Part shown: in pieces, positions 2,673 through 46,162 of the stretch
Layout of the letters: every line of letters starts with the position of its first letter
Position numbering within the stretch: the stretch's first letter is position 1
Assembly: GCA_016209275.1 (NCBI GenBank)
Contig: JACQWM010000052.1
Location: forward strand, 1-62,813
Source of the DNA: Candidatus Omnitrophota bacterium
GTDB lineage: Bacteria > Omnitrophota > Gorgyraeia > Aquiviventales > Aquiviventaceae
Direction of reading: 5' to 3'
DNA length: 62,813 nt
Notes under the pieces: model-generated
The model's database searches: none
What the model saw: the letters and a program-made list of their open reading frames with translations, nothing else
Told to the model about the DNA's origin: nothing
Program-made: the position numbers and the translations under genes

Positions 2673-3362
2673 ATGGGATTAAGAGGATTTTTTATTACGT
2701 TGGACGGACCGGAGGGGTCGGGGAAGTCGACGCAGGCGCGATGGCTGGTGCAGTGGCTGAAGCGGCAAGGCTATCGCGTGACGTTCGTGCGCGATCCCGG
2801 CTCGACGTCGCTGGGACGAGCGCTGCGGCAGGTGCTGCTCCATTCAACCGCACCGCTGTCGCCGCTGGCGGAAGCCCTGCTCTTTATCGGAGGGCGGGTC
2901 CAGCTCGTTGAGGAAAAAATCCGGCCAGCGCTGGCCAAAGGCCGCGTCGTCGTTTGCGACCGGTTTCATGATGCGACGATAGTCTATCAAGGGTATGCTG
3001 GAACGCTAGACGTGCCGTGGCTGCAGCAGCTTGGGCGGCGCGCGATCGGTGGTACGATGCCGGATCTGACGCTAGTGTTGGATGTGCCGCCGCGTATTGG
3101 CTTTAGCCGGCTGAAGCGTTCTCGCGATCGCATGGAGCGCAAGCCGCTGTCGTATCACCGCCGCGTGCGCGCCGGCTATCTGGCACTCGCTCGTCGAGAG
3201 CCGTTGCGCATCAACGTCGTCGATGCGACACCGCCCGCTCAGCGGGTGCGAAACCGGATCACGGCACTGGCGGGCAAACGAGTTGCTCAAGTGGCCAACT
3301 GGCCAAGTGGCCAAACACTCACCGGGCCACCTGGCCACCCGGCCACCGGGCCACTCAGATGA
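2673..3362 (+). CDS. tmk: Thymidylate kinase
   Basis: Phosphorylates dTMP to dTDP. The 229-residue product has the P-loop DGPEGSGKSTQ, the DR-type substrate motif (CDRFHDATIVYQGYAG) and a LID region with RSRDRMERK. I chose the ATG at 2673 because MGLRGFFITLDGPEG is the normal N-terminus; the open frame upstream only translates the ATCTGCT repeat. The last ~25 residues (from about VANWPSGQ) come from a TGGCCAA-type octamer repeat and are not part of the fold. The stop overlaps the holB start (ATGA). Confidence 0.94.
   Translation: MGLRGFFITLDGPEGSGKSTQARWLVQWLKRQGYRVTFVRDPGSTSLGRALRQVLLHSTAPLSPLAEALLFIGGRVQLVEEKIRPALAKGRVVVCDRFHDATIVYQGYAGTLDVPWLQQLGRRAIGGTMPDLTLVLDVPPRIGFSRLKRSRDRMERKPLSYHRRVRAGYLALARREPLRINVVDATPPAQRVRNRITALAGKRVAQVANWPSGQTLTGPPGHPATGPLR
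3292..3353. repeat. TGGCCAAN / CCNGGCCA octamer inverted module
   Basis: Three octamers (tggccaac, tggccaag, tggccaaa) are followed after a short spacer by four octamers on the complementary theme (ccgggcca, cctggcca, cccggcca, ccgggcca). The two halves can pair as an imperfect hairpin. The module lies inside the 3' end of tmk. Confidence 0.75.
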
Positions 3363-39362: not shown

Positions 39363-40391
39363 ATGAAGGCGGTTATCTTTAAGCAGCATGGGGAACCGGA
39401 GGTGCTGGAATACACCGACGCGCCGGATCCCGTCCCCCAACCCGGTGAACTCCTCCTCCGCGTCAAGGCCTGCTCGATTAACCACCTGGATCTGTGGATC
39501 CGGCAGGGCATTCCCGCCTATCGCATGGCGCTACCGCATATCTTAGGCTCCGATGTTTCCGGGGTGGTGGAGCGCGTGACCGACGGGGTGACACACGTCA
39601 AGCCCGGGGATGCCATCGTGCTGGCCCCGGGCTTAAGCTGCGGTCAATGCGATCCCTGCCGGCAAGGCCTCGACAACGTCTGCGTCTCCTTTGGTATCCG
39701 GGGGGCAGCCACCGACGGAGGATATGCCGAGTTGGTCACCGCGAAGACCTCCGATGCGTTGCCCCTGCCGAGAGGGCTGTCGTTTGAAGACGCGGCCGCC
39801 TATCCGCTCGTGTTTCTAGCCGCCTGGCACATGCTAGTGGGGCGCGCGAAGCTGACCGCCGGCGAGCGCGTGCTGATCCATGCCGCGGGCAGCGGTATCG
39901 GCCATGCCGCCATTCAAATCGCGAAACATCTCTCGGCGACGGTGTATGCCACGGTAGGGTCCGATGAGAAAATCGACAAGGCGCGCGCCGTGGGAGCGGA
40001 TGCCGTGATCAATTATCAGCGCGAATCCGTTGAGGAACGCGTCAAGGCGCTGACCGGCGGTGAAGGCGTGCACGTGGTCTTCGAGCACGTCGGCCCGCAG
40101 ACGTGGGAGGCCAGCCTCCGCGTGCTGGCGAAAGGCGGCCGGCTCGTCACGTGCGGGGCCACCACCGGCCCCACCGTGCCGCTTGATCTGCGCTATGTCT
40201 TTTCTCGGCAACTCTCGATCTTCGGCTCCATGATGGGGACGCGGGCTGAACTGCAGCAGGTGACCCAGCTGATCGAACAAGGCGCTCTTCGACCGATCAT
40301 CGATACGGTCTTTCCGCTCCGCAATGCCCGACAAGCCCATGAACGCCTGTTGCGCCGCACCGTCTTTGGAAAACTCGTGTTAGTGCCTTAA
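39363..40391 (+). CDS. Zinc-binding medium-chain dehydrogenase / quinone oxidoreductase
   Basis: 342-residue MDR-family protein. The GroES-like domain has HILGSDVSGVVERV and a structural zinc lobe (CGQCDPCRQGLDNVC); the Rossmann half has IHAAGSGIGHAAIQIAKHL. The substrate is not evident; similar proteins reduce quinones or alkenals. It ends just before the riboswitch. Confidence 0.85.
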   Translation: MKAVIFKQHGEPEVLEYTDAPDPVPQPGELLLRVKACSINHLDLWIRQGIPAYRMALPHILGSDVSGVVERVTDGVTHVKPGDAIVLAPGLSCGQCDPCRQGLDNVCVSFGIRGAATDGGYAELVTAKTSDALPLPRGLSFEDAAAYPLVFLAAWHMLVGRAKLTAGERVLIHAAGSGIGHAAIQIAKHLSATVYATVGSDEKIDKARAVGADAVINYQRESVEERVKALTGGEGVHVVFEHVGPQTWEASLRVLAKGGRLVTCGATTGPTVPLDLRYVFSRQLSIFGSMMGTRAELQQVTQLIEQGALRPIIDTVFPLRNARQAHERLLRRTVFGKLVLVP

Positions 40392-40396
40392 TTGAT

Positions 40397-40425
40397 TTGT
40401 TTTCCCCTCTCAGATTGGGCATACT
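40397..40425 (+). promoter_or_regulatory. Possible promoter for the riboswitch operon
   Basis: TTGTTT (40397-40402) and CATACT (40420-40425) with 17-bp spacing precede the riboswitch. Only moderate matches to consensus. Confidence 0.4.
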
Positions 40426-40430
40426 CATAT

Positions 40431-40449
40431 GGTGCCTGAAAGAGGCACC
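40431..40449 (+). repeat. Hairpin overlapping the riboswitch P1 strand
   Basis: ggtgcct (40431-40437) pairs with aggcacc (40443-40449), sharing two bases with the 5' strand of P1. It could be an alternative fold competing with the aptamer, or simply an upstream stem. Confidence 0.5.
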
Positions 40450-40528
40450 ACCGAAAAGAGCAAACCTCGCGAAAGCGGGGGACGCAAAGCTACCGGCCCT
40501 GAACCTTGGGCAGCGGGGTTACCGGTGG
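40448..40528 (+). promoter_or_regulatory. GEMM-I cyclic dinucleotide riboswitch (A at specificity position 20)
   Basis: The aptamer shows the GEMM-I core: P1 ccaccg/cggtgg (40448-40453 with 40523-40528), GAAAAGAGCAAACC, a P2 hairpin with GAAA tetraloop (cctcgcGAAAgcgggg), GGGACGCAAAGC, then the P3 arm with the tetraloop receptor and GCGGGGTTACCGG. Aligned to the Vibrio Vc2 aptamer, the ligand-contacting base 20 is A (AAGAGCAAACC) where c-di-GMP sensors have G. A at this site is the reported hallmark of 3',3'-cGAMP-preferring GEMM-Ib riboswitches. Downstream are a hairpin and an intrinsic terminator, so control is probably by transcription termination. Confidence 0.88.
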
Positions 40529-40530
40529 AG

Positions 40531-40603
40531 TGATCCGCCAACATTGTTGGCGAAAGATCAACACTTGCGTACACGAGTCTCTTTTCAAGACTCGTGTTTT
40601 TTT
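40531..40603 (+). terminator. Riboswitch expression platform: hairpin plus intrinsic terminator
   Basis: A first hairpin spans 40531-40560 (outer tgatc/gatca, inner cgccaac/gttggcg). Then acacgagtct (40571-40580) pairs with agactcgtgt (40588-40597), followed by seven T residues to 40603. The terminator ends 17 bp before the first pilin-like start codon. Confidence 0.88.
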
Positions 40604-40620
40604 ATGGAGCAGCGATACCG

Positions 40621-41028
40621 ATGCGCCGCGGAATGACGTTTATCGAATTGCTGGTGGCGATCGTGGTGATGATCATCGCCGGCGTGTGGCTGCTCGGGGC
40701 GTATCACGCATCGCTTCAGCTGACCGAGGTGAGCCAGCAAACCAGCGTGGCCCTGAGCGACGCCAAAGATATCATGGAGCGGATCAAGAGCACCCCGTTT
40801 CTCGCGCTGAGTGCCAGTTTTCCTGACGGCGTGGCCGGCGGGGGCGCGCCGGATACCTATGGGGCCATCATCGGCGGGTATTCGCTCAGCGGGGAGCAGG
40901 TGACCGTGCGGCATCAGCCCTCTGCGGTCGCGGATCCGCGCGAGCTCATTGTCGACGTCAGTTGGACGAATAGCCATCGGGTCTACCGCGCTTCGCTCTC
41001 AACCGTCAGATCGCAAAGCGCAAGCTAG
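40621..41028 (+). CDS. Type IV pilin-like protein (PilV-type), first gene after the riboswitch
   Basis: 135 residues with a short leader MRRG and the class III cleavage motif G/MTFIELLVAIVVMI, i.e. Gly before the cut and Glu5 after it. The hydrophobic stalk helix is followed by a small globular part. Minor-pilin PilV/FimT-like by size. A GGAG lies ahead of ATG 40621; the longer open frame starts inside the terminator and is unlikely. Confidence 0.85.
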   Translation: MRRGMTFIELLVAIVVMIIAGVWLLGAYHASLQLTEVSQQTSVALSDAKDIMERIKSTPFLALSASFPDGVAGGGAPDTYGAIIGGYSLSGEQVTVRHQPSAVADPRELIVDVSWTNSHRVYRASLSTVRSQSAS

Positions 41029-41036
41029 GAGCCGCC

Positions 41037-41591
41037 ATGAGGCATCGACACGGCAACGGAGGCAATCGCGGCTTTACGCTTCTTGAAACGCTGCTGGCGG
41101 GCAGCCTGCTGCTGTCCGTCACGTTGATGGGGTTCCTCTGGCTGACCAATGCCATTGATCTGTGGTCGACCACCTCGCTGCAGAGCGCCGCGCGCTCGGA
41201 CGCGCAGCTGGCCATGAGCCGCATGGTCAACGAATTGCGGCAGGGGACGCGGACAGCCGCCGGCATCCCCCCCAACGCCGACATCATCGCCGCCGATCAT
41301 GTGCGGTTTTCTCTGCCGGCTGACAACGACGGAAACGGCAAGATTGTCGATGCCATCGGCGCCATCGAGTGGGGCATAGTACCCGTGGAGTATCAATGGG
41401 ATGCGGCCAGCCAGCAATTGCGCCGCGCGCAAGGGGCGCAAACACAGGTGCTGGCCTCTGGGGTTTCGAGTGTCGCGTTTGCGGCCGTCAATACAAGCGA
41501 GCTGCAGCTGACCCTCACTCTGCAGCGCCGGACGTCGCGAGGGCGGCAACTGTCGGCATCCGCCACCGAGATCGTCAAGCTGAGAAATTAA
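41037..41591 (+). CDS. Type IV pilin-like protein (PilW-type)
   Basis: 184 residues with leader MRHRHGNGGNRG and motif G/FTLLETLLAGSLLLSVTLM, then a beta-rich pilin body. The segment DAQLAMSRMVNELRQGTR is PilW-like. It follows the PilV-type gene by 8 bp and forms the second minor pilin of the first set. Confidence 0.85.
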   Translation: MRHRHGNGGNRGFTLLETLLAGSLLLSVTLMGFLWLTNAIDLWSTTSLQSAARSDAQLAMSRMVNELRQGTRTAAGIPPNADIIAADHVRFSLPADNDGNGKIVDAIGAIEWGIVPVEYQWDAASQQLRRAQGAQTQVLASGVSSVAFAAVNTSELQLTLTLQRRTSRGRQLSASATEIVKLRN

Positions 41592-41605: not shown

Positions 41606-43261
41606 ATGGATCGACGAGGCCAAGCCGTCTTGCTCGCCTACGTGACCATCGCCACGATCACCGTGCTGGGGGCCGCACTCCTCAACCAGAGTTTCACGGC
41701 CAGCCGCAACAGCGCGCATCACCGCTTGCAAGCCGAGACATTTTACTTGGCCGAAGGAGGGTTGGAAGACGCCCTGAGGCAATTCGCCCAAGGCATCGCC
41801 GACTTCACGATCGACGCCAACACGGCGCAGTATCCGGCCGCAGGCAGCGACCCGATCGCCACGGCGTTTACCGCCGGCGGCACCGCGGCCTCGAGGATCG
41901 CGCAGGCCGAAGCCGCGCCCCGCGCCATCGTCGCGCAGGATGGCATCACAGAATTTGTGAAGAACTACGAGGTGACGACGACGGCCGTCAATCCCTCCAA
42001 CCCCACGATTTCCGTCACGCTCCATCAAATCATCAGCCGGCGCCTGGTCTATACCTTTCAACACGCCATCTTCTATCACGACACGGACTTGGAGCTGCTG
42101 CCAGGACCCCCGATGACCGTGTGGGGGCGCGTGCATGGCAATGCGAACATCTACCTCGACTCGAATGCCGTCCTGACCCTGAACAGCGATTACCTGCACG
42201 CCGCAGGCCACCTCTACAACCAGCGGAAGGATGACGGCACGACGATGCCCGGGGAGATTAACATCAAGAAGATGGGAACGAATCCGCCGCAGTACGCCGC
42301 GATGAACGGTCTTGATAGCGATGTGCCGACGTGGAAGGATGATGCCACGAATCGCTGGCTGGGGACCGCCCAAACCTCCGCGCACGGAGTGACCAAGCTG
42401 TCGGTCCCGGTCGTCGGCTCCATCCAACCCGGCGGCTTTTACGACACCCGCGCCCAGGTGAAAATCGTCAATGACACGATCACCGATGCGGCCGGTACCC
42501 CGCTGGTCGTGCCGCCAGGCACCATCACGACGACGACGACGTTCAAAAACAACCGGGAAGGCAAGTTCATCAAGATGACGGAGGTCGACCTGAAAAGACT
42601 GGCAGGATATTTTGACTGCACCGGCCCTGGCGGCGTCCCGGACGGGATCTTAGATCCCCCCGAAACGCCTTGCAACCCCTATGAGAATCAGCTGCCAGGA
42701 AATGGCCTGCTCTACGCCACTCGTAATGATGCTCCAGCAGGCCAGCAGCCGGGCATTCGCCTCGTCAACGGCGGCGAAGTCTTCCGGGCGGATGGCCTGA
42801 CGGTGGTGTCCAACGATCCGGTGTACGTCAAAGGCGATTTCAACGCGGTGAATAAGAAGCCGGTGGCGGTCATCGGGGATGCGGTCAACCTGCTGTCGAA
42901 TAGCTGGAATGACGCGAACAGCACCCTGAACGTCAACAGCCGCGTGGCCTCCAATACGACGATCAACGCCGCCTTTATCGCCGGCAACGTGCCCACGCAG
43001 GGCGCGAACTACAGCGGCGGCTTGGAGAACTATCCGAGATTCCACGAGCATTGGAGCGGGAAAACGCTCTCCATCACCGGATCGTTCGTCGCTCTGTGGA
43101 ACAGCCAGATCGCCACCGGACGATGGGTCTACGGCAATCCCCAGTACACGGCGCCGAATCGCTCCTGGGGGTATGACGCGTCATTTTCCGACGGGACTCG
43201 GCTGCCGCCCTTCTCGCCGTATTCCGTCCAGATCACGAGAGGAGCGTGGTGGAAAGAATGA
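41606..43261 (+). CDS. Large PilX-like pilus assembly protein (551 aa)
   Basis: Starts at ATG 41606 after GCGGAGGA. The N-terminus MDRRGQAVLLAYVTIATITVLGAALL (by its ends) is a membrane helix lacking the classic FTLxE motif but typical of PilX-type and DUF4900-like proteins; FYLAEGGLEDALR is the conserved follow-up. The rest (about residues 150-551) is beta-rich and Asn/Thr-rich with VWGRVHGNANIYLDSN, suggesting an extracellular domain. The long open frame upstream of 41606 overlaps the PilW gene and is not used. Confidence 0.75.
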   Translation: MDRRGQAVLLAYVTIATITVLGAALLNQSFTASRNSAHHRLQAETFYLAEGGLEDALRQFAQGIADFTIDANTAQYPAAGSDPIATAFTAGGTAASRIAQAEAAPRAIVAQDGITEFVKNYEVTTTAVNPSNPTISVTLHQIISRRLVYTFQHAIFYHDTDLELLPGPPMTVWGRVHGNANIYLDSNAVLTLNSDYLHAAGHLYNQRKDDGTTMPGEINIKKMGTNPPQYAAMNGLDSDVPTWKDDATNRWLGTAQTSAHGVTKLSVPVVGSIQPGGFYDTRAQVKIVNDTITDAAGTPLVVPPGTITTTTTFKNNREGKFIKMTEVDLKRLAGYFDCTGPGGVPDGILDPPETPCNPYENQLPGNGLLYATRNDAPAGQQPGIRLVNGGEVFRADGLTVVSNDPVYVKGDFNAVNKKPVAVIGDAVNLLSNSWNDANSTLNVNSRVASNTTINAAFIAGNVPTQGANYSGGLENYPRFHEHWSGKTLSITGSFVALWNSQIATGRWVYGNPQYTAPNRSWGYDASFSDGTRLPPFSPYSVQITRGAWWKE

Positions 43262-44457
43262 ACACTCATCGCCAACGCGGGATCGTGCTGATCACGTCAG
43301 TGACCGTGGTCATGCTGCTCACCTCGCTGGGGGCGGCACTCCTCATGCGCAGCCTCAACGAGAATCTGGTGGGGCAGCGCAGCGCCACACGCCAAGACGC
43401 GTTTTACCTGGCGGAAGCCGGCTTGGATCAAGCCTCGATCAACTTGCGGACCCCGCCGCCGGCCGAAAACCCGCAGTGGATTGTCGCGGATGATATCGTC
43501 ACGCAGACGCTTCCGACCGGGCGATTCGATCTGGATCCGCCCCAGCCGATGGGTGTGAACATCTGGCAGGTGACCAGCCACGGCATCAGCGGATCAGAGC
43601 AACGCGACATCCAGGCCGTCTACCAGCTCATTCCGCAATCAGTCTTTCAATTCGCCGTCTTCGGGGATCTGAACGTCACCGTCTCCGGCAACGCGGAAAC
43701 CGACAGTTACGATTCCCGGATCGGCGTCTACAACGATGAGCCTGGGCCGGGGTATAATAAGGACCACAACGGCGATATCGGCACGAACTCAACCGCGGAG
43801 GGCGGGATTGATCTCGGCGGCAGCATCTTTGTCGACGGACAGCTCGTGGTAGGACCCGGCGTTGCCGATCCCACCTCGGTTGTGGAAGACTACGACCCAT
43901 CGTTCATCACCGCGGATCCGAAAGTGATCTCGGCGACCGACACCTTTCCCCTGCCGCCGGTGTCGGTGCCGCCAGGGCTGCCGTGCGAGGATCGCTCTCT
44001 CGTCAATGATGAAGTGGTGACCTTGACCCCGGACGGCGGGCCGCTGGGCAACGGGACGTATTGTTTTCATGACCTAAAACTCGCCGGCGGCTCGACCTTC
44101 TCCTCAAGCGGGCCGGTCAAAGTCTACATCACCGGCACACTCACGGCGAAGGGCAATTCTGCAACGGTTGGAACCAGCGGGGCCCCGAAAGACATGCTCA
44201 TCCTGATGACGCCGGAATCGAACGCGGTGATTGAAGATGCGGCGCTGGCCGGCACGACCGATTTTTACGGCGCCATCTACGGCCCCGGTGCTGATATCAA
44301 CATCTTTGGCAATGCGGAAATTTTCGGCTCGGTGGTCGCGCGCAGCGTGAACGTGACCGGCAGCGCGTTGATCCATTATGATGAAGGTTTGAACGATCTG
44401 ACGACCATCACCAACATCTATCAGCGCAGGGTGGTCTCGTGGCAAGAGCTCGAGTAA
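43258..44457 (+). CDS. PilX-like pilus protein with C-terminal beta domain
   Basis: 399 residues beginning MNTHRQRGIVLITSVTVVMLLTSLG (by its ends), then FYLAEAGLDQASINLR as in the preceding gene, and a C-terminal DUF7305-like region (GSTFSSSGPVKVYITGTL; FYGAIYGPGADINIFG) predicted to form a beta-helix-like extracellular domain. It overlaps the upstream gene (ATGA). The two neighbours share the AEAGL/AEGGL pattern and may be paralogues. Confidence 0.75.
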   Translation: MNTHRQRGIVLITSVTVVMLLTSLGAALLMRSLNENLVGQRSATRQDAFYLAEAGLDQASINLRTPPPAENPQWIVADDIVTQTLPTGRFDLDPPQPMGVNIWQVTSHGISGSEQRDIQAVYQLIPQSVFQFAVFGDLNVTVSGNAETDSYDSRIGVYNDEPGPGYNKDHNGDIGTNSTAEGGIDLGGSIFVDGQLVVGPGVADPTSVVEDYDPSFITADPKVISATDTFPLPPVSVPPGLPCEDRSLVNDEVVTLTPDGGPLGNGTYCFHDLKLAGGSTFSSSGPVKVYITGTLTAKGNSATVGTSGAPKDMLILMTPESNAVIEDAALAGTTDFYGAIYGPGADINIFGNAEIFGSVVARSVNVTGSALIHYDEGLNDLTTITNIYQRRVVSWQELE

Positions 44458-44990
44458 GACGCCTGCCGCGGCCGCGGCCGCTTCAGGCCATGACGCTCGT
44501 CGAGTTATTGATGGGCGTGCTGGTGCTGCTCATCGCCATCATTTCGCTCTTCGGCGTCTTCAGCGGCAGCAGCCTCTTGAATGAGCAATCGCGCCATCGG
44601 GCCTGGGCGATGACCGATGCCAGCCGCGTGATGGAACGGCTGCGGCAGCAGAATACGGATGCCGCCTGCAACGCCCCATCGGTTGCTCCTCCCCCCAATC
44701 CTCCCGGTGGTAATTTCGTCAGCTGGGATGCGTGGCTGGCCGATGCTGGGGCGAACGGCGGCGGCGGCAAGACCTTGCTGCCGGATCCCGCCAATGAATT
44801 GGTGGCGATGTCCTCATCGGGGGTGGATCCGCTGACGGTCACGGTGGCGATTTGCTGGCGGCTGCGCAGCCGCGTCTATGGCGAATGCCAATGGATCGGC
44901 AATCAATTAGTGCCCCAGGATGCCGATGGCAATCTCATCATCACCTCGCCCGTCATGCTCTCTACCGTGATGACGTGCCGCCGCCCATGA
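44439..44990 (+). CDS. Type IV pilin-like protein (PilV-type), second set
   Basis: 183 residues from a GTG start, giving the basic leader MARARVRRLPRPRPLQA and the motif A/MTLVELLMGVLVLLIAIISL (Ala instead of Gly before the cut). A start at ATG 44490 would remove the leader, so I prefer the GTG. The body contains a Pro/Asn-rich loop. It overlaps the upstream gene by 19 bp. Confidence 0.8.
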   Translation: MARARVRRLPRPRPLQAMTLVELLMGVLVLLIAIISLFGVFSGSSLLNEQSRHRAWAMTDASRVMERLRQQNTDAACNAPSVAPPPNPPGGNFVSWDAWLADAGANGGGGKTLLPDPANELVAMSSSGVDPLTVTVAICWRLRSRVYGECQWIGNQLVPQDADGNLIITSPVMLSTVMTCRRP

Positions 44991-45589
44991 GACGCTCAAC
45001 CGGCTGCCGCCAGGCGCAGGGGTTAACGCTGCTTGAGGCGCTGGTCGTCGGCTCCTTGCTCAGCGTTGTGATGGGCGCGATCGTGCTTAGCTTCCTGACG
45101 AGCCAGCGCGCCTACACCTCATCAGAGGCGTACTTAAGCGTTCAAGACGAAGCGCGGCGAGCGCTGGATGCCATGACGAAGGAGCTGCATGCCGCCGGCG
45201 GGAATATCGCCACCGGGGCGGGCTGGTTGCAGTTTCAACGCGTGCTGGGCTTTAACCTGGCCCTACCGTGCCCGCCCAGCGCCGTCTGTTGGGGGGCGCA
45301 GGATGCCGCCGGCGCAGACCAATTCGGCTGGAGCATCCGCTACCGCCTGGACGCGCCGAAGAAGCAGCTCGTGCGGGAAATCCTTGATGCGGGTGCCGGC
45401 GTGCAGGGCCAGCAGATCTTGGCCAACGATGTCACACAGCTGACCTTTGCCTACACCCCCGGGGCGGTGAGAACCATCAGGATCACGATCGATGTGCGGC
45501 GGACCTCCACGTTCCTCCCCGGCGGCTCGATGGGGACCACACCCACACCGGCCACCTCGCTCATCACCACGGTCAAGCTCCGCAATTAG
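44987..45589 (+). CDS. Type IV pilin-like protein (PilW-type), second set
   Basis: 200 residues with leader MRRSTGCRQAQG and motif G/LTLLEALVVGSLLSVVMGA, then DEARRALDAMTKELHAAGGN. It overlaps the previous gene by 4 bp and ends the riboswitch-controlled operon. The two PilV/PilW pairs in this operon look like separate sets of minor pilins. Confidence 0.82.
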   Translation: MRRSTGCRQAQGLTLLEALVVGSLLSVVMGAIVLSFLTSQRAYTSSEAYLSVQDEARRALDAMTKELHAAGGNIATGAGWLQFQRVLGFNLALPCPPSAVCWGAQDAAGADQFGWSIRYRLDAPKKQLVREILDAGAGVQGQQILANDVTQLTFAYTPGAVRTIRITIDVRRTSTFLPGGSMGTTPTPATSLITTVKLRN

Positions 45590-45649: not shown

Positions 45650-46162
45650 ATGAAACTCTCCACGCGATCGACGTATGGCCTGCGGGCCTTGGTCGAGCTG
45701 GCCTTGGCCTCAGGCCGAGGGCCGCTGTCGGCGAGTGTCGTGGCCAAGCGGCAGCATCTGTCCGTCGCGTACCTTGAGCAGCTGCTGCATCGGCTCAAGC
45801 GGGGCGGCATCATCAGCAGCGTGCGGGGGCCGCGCGGCGGCTATGCGCTGGCCAGAGCGCCATCGACCATGACGATGGCGGAGATCGTGCGCATCCTCGA
45901 GGGGACGAGCGACGACGCGAACGGCCATGGCACAGCCGGCGGTGTGGCATGGCTCAGCAACGGCCGTCGGCCTGAGGCGAAGCGCGGCCGATCTCGCGTG
46001 AGCCACGATCGCCATGCGCAGTGGGTCGCGCAGGCGGTGGTGCGGTGCGTGCACGAGCGGATCACGCAATCGCTGAGCGCGATCACGCTGCAGCATCTGT
46101 GCGATGAGGCGCGCGCGATCGCCGGCGAGCCGCTGGATCATCGGTATGTGTTCCATATCTAG
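45650..46162 (+). CDS. Rrf2-family transcriptional regulator
   Basis: Residues 1-85 match Rrf2/IscR winged helices: MKLSTRSTYGLRALVELAL, VAKRQHLSVAYLEQLLHRLKRGG (by its ends), VRGPRGGYALAR and MTMAEIVRILEG. The C-terminal part lacks the three-Cys [2Fe-2S] cluster of IscR (only two Cys, far apart), so an iron-sulfur sensor role is doubtful. It is followed 6 bp later by the folate gene, implying co-transcription. Confidence 0.88.
   Translation: MKLSTRSTYGLRALVELALASGRGPLSASVVAKRQHLSVAYLEQLLHRLKRGGIISSVRGPRGGYALARAPSTMTMAEIVRILEGTSDDANGHGTAGGVAWLSNGRRPEAKRGRSRVSHDRHAQWVAQAVVRCVHERITQSLSAITLQHLCDEARAIAGEPLDHRYVFHI

Follow-up and report, generated by a model that had tools for sequence, protein, structure and literature searches.

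A GEMM-I riboswitch with A at position 20 ahead of a minor-pilin operon in an Omnitrophota genome

In GEMM-I riboswitches, A at position 20 is the known cGAMP-selectivity change. The window analysed here, a stretch of 62,813 nt that forms contig C52 of a Candidatus Omnitrophota genome (1.8 Mb, 96.7% complete), carries a GEMM-I aptamer with this base in front of pilin-like genes. Does the A make the switch a sensor of 3',3'-cGAMP, as in the GEMM-Ib riboswitches of Geobacter and its relatives? An earlier note had proposed so, and had pointed out that cGAMP sensing would then extend to another lineage if the genome is not deltaproteobacterial. The genome is indeed not deltaproteobacterial, as the nearest homologues of its RNase Y (Rny), 71-90% identical, come nearly all from Omnitrophota MAGs, with one record among them carrying the title Planctomycetales. 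Comparison of the Rny protein with solved structures gave no match, which has no bearing on the riboswitch.

The aptamer, its leader and the pilin operon

The aptamer occupies positions 40448-40528 (+ strand). The Rfam covariance model RF01051 matches 40449-40526 (+) with 66 bits against a gathering threshold of 35, and a covariance model of our own, built from 12 aptamers of the same genome with that of the window included, gives 78.3 bits. In this genome-specific model both sides change in 11 of 20 pairs, the covariation score is 0.508 versus 0.226 in shuffles, and 95.4% of cells are paired versus about 27-45% when the partners are slid. P1 (6 bp, CCACCG/CGGTGG), P2 and P3 are all intact. 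Like Vc2-type c-di-GMP-I aptamers, that of the window has P1, P2 with a GNRA-type loop, P3, the core segments GGGACGCAAAGC and GGGGTTACCG, and a downstream terminator; the ligand contacts A47 (A40486) and C92 (C40522) are both present in the covariance alignment. It differs from them at base 20. Mapping of alignment columns places A40459, the base directly 5' of the lower P2 pair, at the Vc2-equivalent position 20, with a J1/2 of AAAAGA, so that the usual c-di-GMP contact G20 is absent. G20 is typical of the family, though the family model does not require it. These results confirm the aptamer and the A that the earlier note had assigned, and the aptamer is a genuine, well-formed member of GEMM-I whose base at the selectivity position is unusual.

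An Rfam scan, in which this was the sole riboswitch of the window, also matched 40450-40527 (+) to the c-di-GMP-I-GGC variant RF03167 (62.4 bits, E 2.4e-12), the clan member that the first scan retained. The consensus of that variant has G47 and G20 whereas the window has A47 and A20, and membership was rejected on position 47, which is A40486 and not G.

The 5' leader begins with a hairpin, GGTGCCT-GAAAG-AGGCACC (40431-40449, +; sequence and fold), that has two bases in common with P1. A probable -10 element, CATACT, lies at 40419-40424 (+). A strict promoter scan did not pick it up; a (C/T)ATACT box stands shortly 5' of the aptamer in other GEMM-I leaders of the same genome and in the syntenic leaders of relatives. 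Downstream, a terminator scan confirmed the intrinsic terminator noticed earlier at 40571-40603 (+; ACACGAGTCT-CTTTTCA-AGACTCGTGT followed by a T run; -14.3 kcal/mol). Its stem of 10 pairs spans 40571-40597, it is the only terminator within 40300-40700, and the first start codon, ATG at 40621, begins 17 nt past its end at 40603. A CACGAG... terminator is retained in three relatives (L030, L041 and L027).

In folding calculations the terminator forms whether the aptamer is present (0.92) or left out (0.999), and simple folding of the leader yielded no structure that excludes it. Consequently, we make no ON/OFF assignment. J1/2 at 40453-40460 (GAAAAGAG, A20 included) is an exact complement, over 8 bp, of the loop and upper arm of the terminator at 40580-40587 (CTCTTTTC); in L030 the match is, by eye, 10 bp. 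Among 188 aptamers, J1/2-terminator matches of at least 7 number 17, versus a permutation mean of 8.8 and a largest value of 15 in 50 runs. As a candidate switching element this pairing is only a weak lead.

The six pilin-like genes reported earlier were recovered, mostly through family matches below curated cut-offs, as two PilV/PilW/PilX-like sets, all on the + strand. The first three encode a PilV-like minor prepilin (40621-41028; TIGR02523 2e-5, N_methyl 0.0025, both below cut-off), a PilW/GspJ-like minor prepilin (41037-41591; weak NCBIfam matches, syntenic in L024, L025, L027, L030 and L031) and a large PilX-like prepilin-type protein with an HpsA-like C-terminal region (41606-43261; NF038301 2.8e-28, below cut-off). 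The other genes encode a PilX-like protein with DUF7305 (43246-44457; PF23981 1.1e-18, above cut-off), a second PilV-like minor prepilin (44439-44990; TIGR02523 2.3e-4, below cut-off) and a second PilW-like minor prepilin (44987-45589; TIGR02599 1.3e-5, below cut-off). An Rrf2-family regulator (45650-46162, +; PF02082 1.1e-27) ends the syntenic block.

Comparison with GEMM-Ib and cyclic-dinucleotide synthases

As a positive control, a pattern of A20 plus U19 and any lower P2 was run against 296 genomes from a different phylum, a set centred on a MAG that has the title Deltaproteobacteria. Four genomes of 3.5-4.5 Mb were found with 5-12 GEMM-Ib copies each. J1/2 reads GA(T/C)AATA before a P2 pair CT/GG in 47 of 47 copies read from the control loci, some of which may have been read twice where neighbouring fetched loci overlap, and in all 33 of the matches listed. 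All four genomes have matches to the Hypr motif, and in each of them one or two enzymes carry Ser together with GGDEY or GGDEF, as GacA does. From this combination of GEMM-Ib and Ser-type Hypr GGDEF enzymes we infer that they are Geobacter or close kin. A Gm0970 sequence, checked only against the published number C75, served for orientation; the control genomes were then used in its place.

The window has A20, A47, C92 and downstream pilus genes in common with GEMM-Ib, as well as the generic GEMM-I positions. In contrast to the controls, it reads GAAAAGA before a GC/GC lower P2; U19 is replaced by G19, C21, U22 and G46 are likewise missing, and its genome contains no Hypr GGDEF. Among roughly 190 Omnitrophota aptamers that were read, none had a CT lower P2.

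One natural Geobacter GEMM-Ib aptamer is ~1200-fold selective for cGAMP (PMC6456294). In an NMR study of the Cd1 aptamer, replacement of the equivalent base by A or C did not greatly affect c-di-GMP binding (PMC9262584), and a protonated adenine can enable cGAMP aptamers to bind c-di-GMP (work cited in PMC9262584). A20 is therefore compatible with c-di-GMP and may make the aptamer less selective. In the published mutants position 20 acts as a selectivity factor and as no hard filter for c-di-GMP (PMC9262584).

A search of the genome for Hypr-GGDEF or DncV synthases had been suggested as a check. Among its seven GGDEF matches, four strong ones carry Asp at the Hypr site, as does a single GGDDF, and two are degenerate; no Ser/Thr Hypr GGDEF and no SMODS/DncV-type synthase was found. 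Ser at this site is the signature of Hypr GGDEF enzymes (PMC6456294, PMC8835794). The Ser/Thr pattern matched in none of ten Omnitrophota genomes with A20 aptamers (this one and nine others), while the same search succeeds in four of four controls. SMODS synthases occur in two of the ten (G020 and G025). When most GGDEF domains of seven A20 genomes were read singly, Asp was found throughout except for Asn in L205 (genome G175) and L228 (G163); both of these genomes hold aptamers with U19-A20. Across 285 Omnitrophota genomes, a pattern with a Ser codon (TCN) returned background and one Ser enzyme (L184, G066), which was set aside: it has GGEEF, and Ser at the Hypr site combined with GGEEF is reported to be non-functional (PMC6456294).

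GEMM-I is present in 249 of these 285 genomes, and a strict A20 pattern matches eight. Aptamers with U19-A20, a Geobacter-like ligand loop and a normal GC/GC lower P2 were seen in six other Omnitrophota genomes (L142 in G175, L143 in G025, L144 in G163, L146 in G269, L119 in G148 and L148 in G020) and once in the genome of the window (C14:20172). Their J1/2 reads GATAATA, GACAATA or GATACTA, of which the first two match Geobacter GEMM-Ib letter for letter. Those at L142 and L144 precede type IV pilin genes, and G020 has two in tandem. Outside Deltaproteobacteria, these aptamers make better cGAMP-sensor candidates than the one in the window. Omnitrophota might even have a cGAMP pathway of their own, with a new synthase, U19-A20 sensors and, in the window, a G19-A20 switch that reaches this specificity in another way. 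The genomes with U19-A20 aptamers have no Hypr GGDEF enzymes, so the messenger, if present, would need a new synthase; we regard such a pathway as doubtful because most U19-A20 aptamers are not accompanied by a known one.

Position 20 in the regulon and in relatives

The genome contains 20 GEMM-I aptamers, with G at base 20 in 14, A in four and C in two; base 47 is always A and base 92 always C. The A20 aptamers are that of the window, which scores on par with its paralogues, and those at C14:20172, C28:16504 and C53:49381. Judged from translations, the regulon includes minor-pilin operons (C29, C51), secreted proteins, subtilisin-like proteases, response regulators and a histidine kinase. Of two secreted proteins that have their first ~40 residues in common, one is under a G20 switch (C62) and the other under an A20 switch (C28); this speaks against a clean ligand-based division of labour.

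Several features of the regulon may be recorded here. The two C20 aptamers of the genome are at C2:17680 and C56:6982; such aptamers, with AAAC before P2, were read in this genome and in relatives (L019:7680-7793, L023:6981-7114, L316:1300-1402, L317:60-156 and L256:1300-1382), and those of L316 and L317 stand ahead of PilX-like genes. Tandem GEMM-I aptamers at C14:19908 and C14:20172 (L017:2909-3055 and 3172-3315) precede an Ig-like secreted protein. The first is G20 (GAACGG) and the second U19-A20 (GATACTA), and together they may form a two-input switch. A palindromic repeat like GATATCAGATATCGAATTCGATATCTGATATC lies inside the P3 loop of five riboswitches of the genome (L015:7868-7899, L015:10909-10924, L017:2979-2994, L019:7704-7735 and L023:7033-7048) and at other places in that genome. 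It resembles a small mobile palindrome that exploits a tolerant loop.

In this genome and 18 related ones, 154 distinct aptamers have G at base 20 in 141 cases, C in five and A in eight, one of the eight (L041) being a misalignment by eye. The block consisting of adh, leader, pilin genes and rrf2 is syntenic in relatives. In four of them (L030, L031, L041 and L027) the pilin-operon switch has G directly ahead of P2 and an enlarged J1/2, which reads AAAAGAGGG|GC in L030 and AAAAGTGG|GC in L041 and contains hairpin inserts in L031 and L027. L030 and L025 read CCGAAAAGAGGGGC at the site where the window reads CCGAAAAGAGC. Of the leader, L025 (3560-3640) has kept nothing but the promoter and, ahead of the start codon, CCGAAAAGAGGGGC; L024 (5600-5960) retains only the 3' part of the aptamer and the terminator; L026 (3685-3830) has a palindromic insert where the aptamer would stand; and L028 (6170-6370) is without an aptamer. 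In these last four, which are close relatives, the syntenic riboswitch is in the course of loss or replacement.

Since G stands at this site in the four syntenic relatives, A20 of the window looks like a derived state of its own lineage and not a conserved GEMM-Ib signature, a direction of change inferred from those relatives rather than from a tree. The simplest reading would be that the A came to adjoin P2 through a change in the length of J1/2. In L145, from a distant genome of the phylum, the same J1/2 (GAAAAGA) also stands ahead of a pilin gene, a recurrence that could reflect selection.

The ligand and what it means for the family

We believe that this GEMM-I riboswitch probably controls the minor-pilin operon via the terminator, with c-di-GMP as its most likely ligand and with selectivity possibly relaxed to accept cGAMP too. 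c-di-GMP is favored because the 20-copy regulon is mostly G20, the diguanylate cyclases are canonical and no cGAMP synthase is recognisable. The canonical cyclases would make c-di-GMP, which would bind the aptamer while RNA polymerase is still in the leader; the bound aptamer would alter how often transcription terminates at 40571, and thereby how much minor pilin is made. Four points count against this explanation: A20 is the known cGAMP-selectivity change, strongly selective in one natural GEMM-Ib aptamer; the window's J1/2 recurs in L145; the assembly is 96.7% complete, so that it may lack a synthase or hold one of an unrecognised kind; and folding predicts the terminator irrespective of the aptamer.

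The proposal that A20 marks a cGAMP switch here is not supported by the comparison with the controls, which combine U19-A20 with CU/GG in all copies while the window combines G19-A20 with GC/GC, nor by the lack of a known synthase or the G of the orthologous switches. For the same reasons we think it unlikely that the riboswitch of the window is a true cGAMP sensor, selective through A20 and served by a GGDEF enzyme without Ser, by another CD-NTase family or by an enzyme outside the assembly. Such a sensor would account for the A itself and for A20 loops before pilin genes elsewhere in the phylum (the same loop in L145, U19-A20 in L142 and L144). The Asn-type GGDEF enzymes of L205 and L228 and the SMODS synthases of G020 and G025, all in other A20 genomes, also count in its favor.

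It is less probable again that the riboswitch is decaying, with A20 as one step in the loss of the leader across the family. The broken or missing leaders of L024, L025, L026 and L028 would fit such a course, but the window keeps every conserved core segment and helix as well as the terminator, and its aptamer scores no lower than the paralogues. A register effect in the alignment, with G19 in the role of G20 and the A bulged out as a surplus base, is very improbable. The paralogue at C54 has a 5-nt J1/2, AAAAG, next to GC, to which the window adds one A, and J1/2 length varies widely among the syntenic switches; however, the J1/2 of the window has the usual 6 nt and aligns to the Rfam model without gaps. 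c-di-GMP control of the operon remains the reading that we prefer.

These results indicate that A20 alone is a poor annotation marker for cGAMP sensing, as the control GEMM-Ib aptamers also have U19, a changed lower P2 and Hypr GGDEF enzymes in their genomes. Omnitrophota, an almost uncultured phylum, make very wide use of GEMM-I, and base 20 can be G, A or C within one genome. Their aptamers are a natural test set for how a riboswitch tolerates, or undergoes, a change of ligand.
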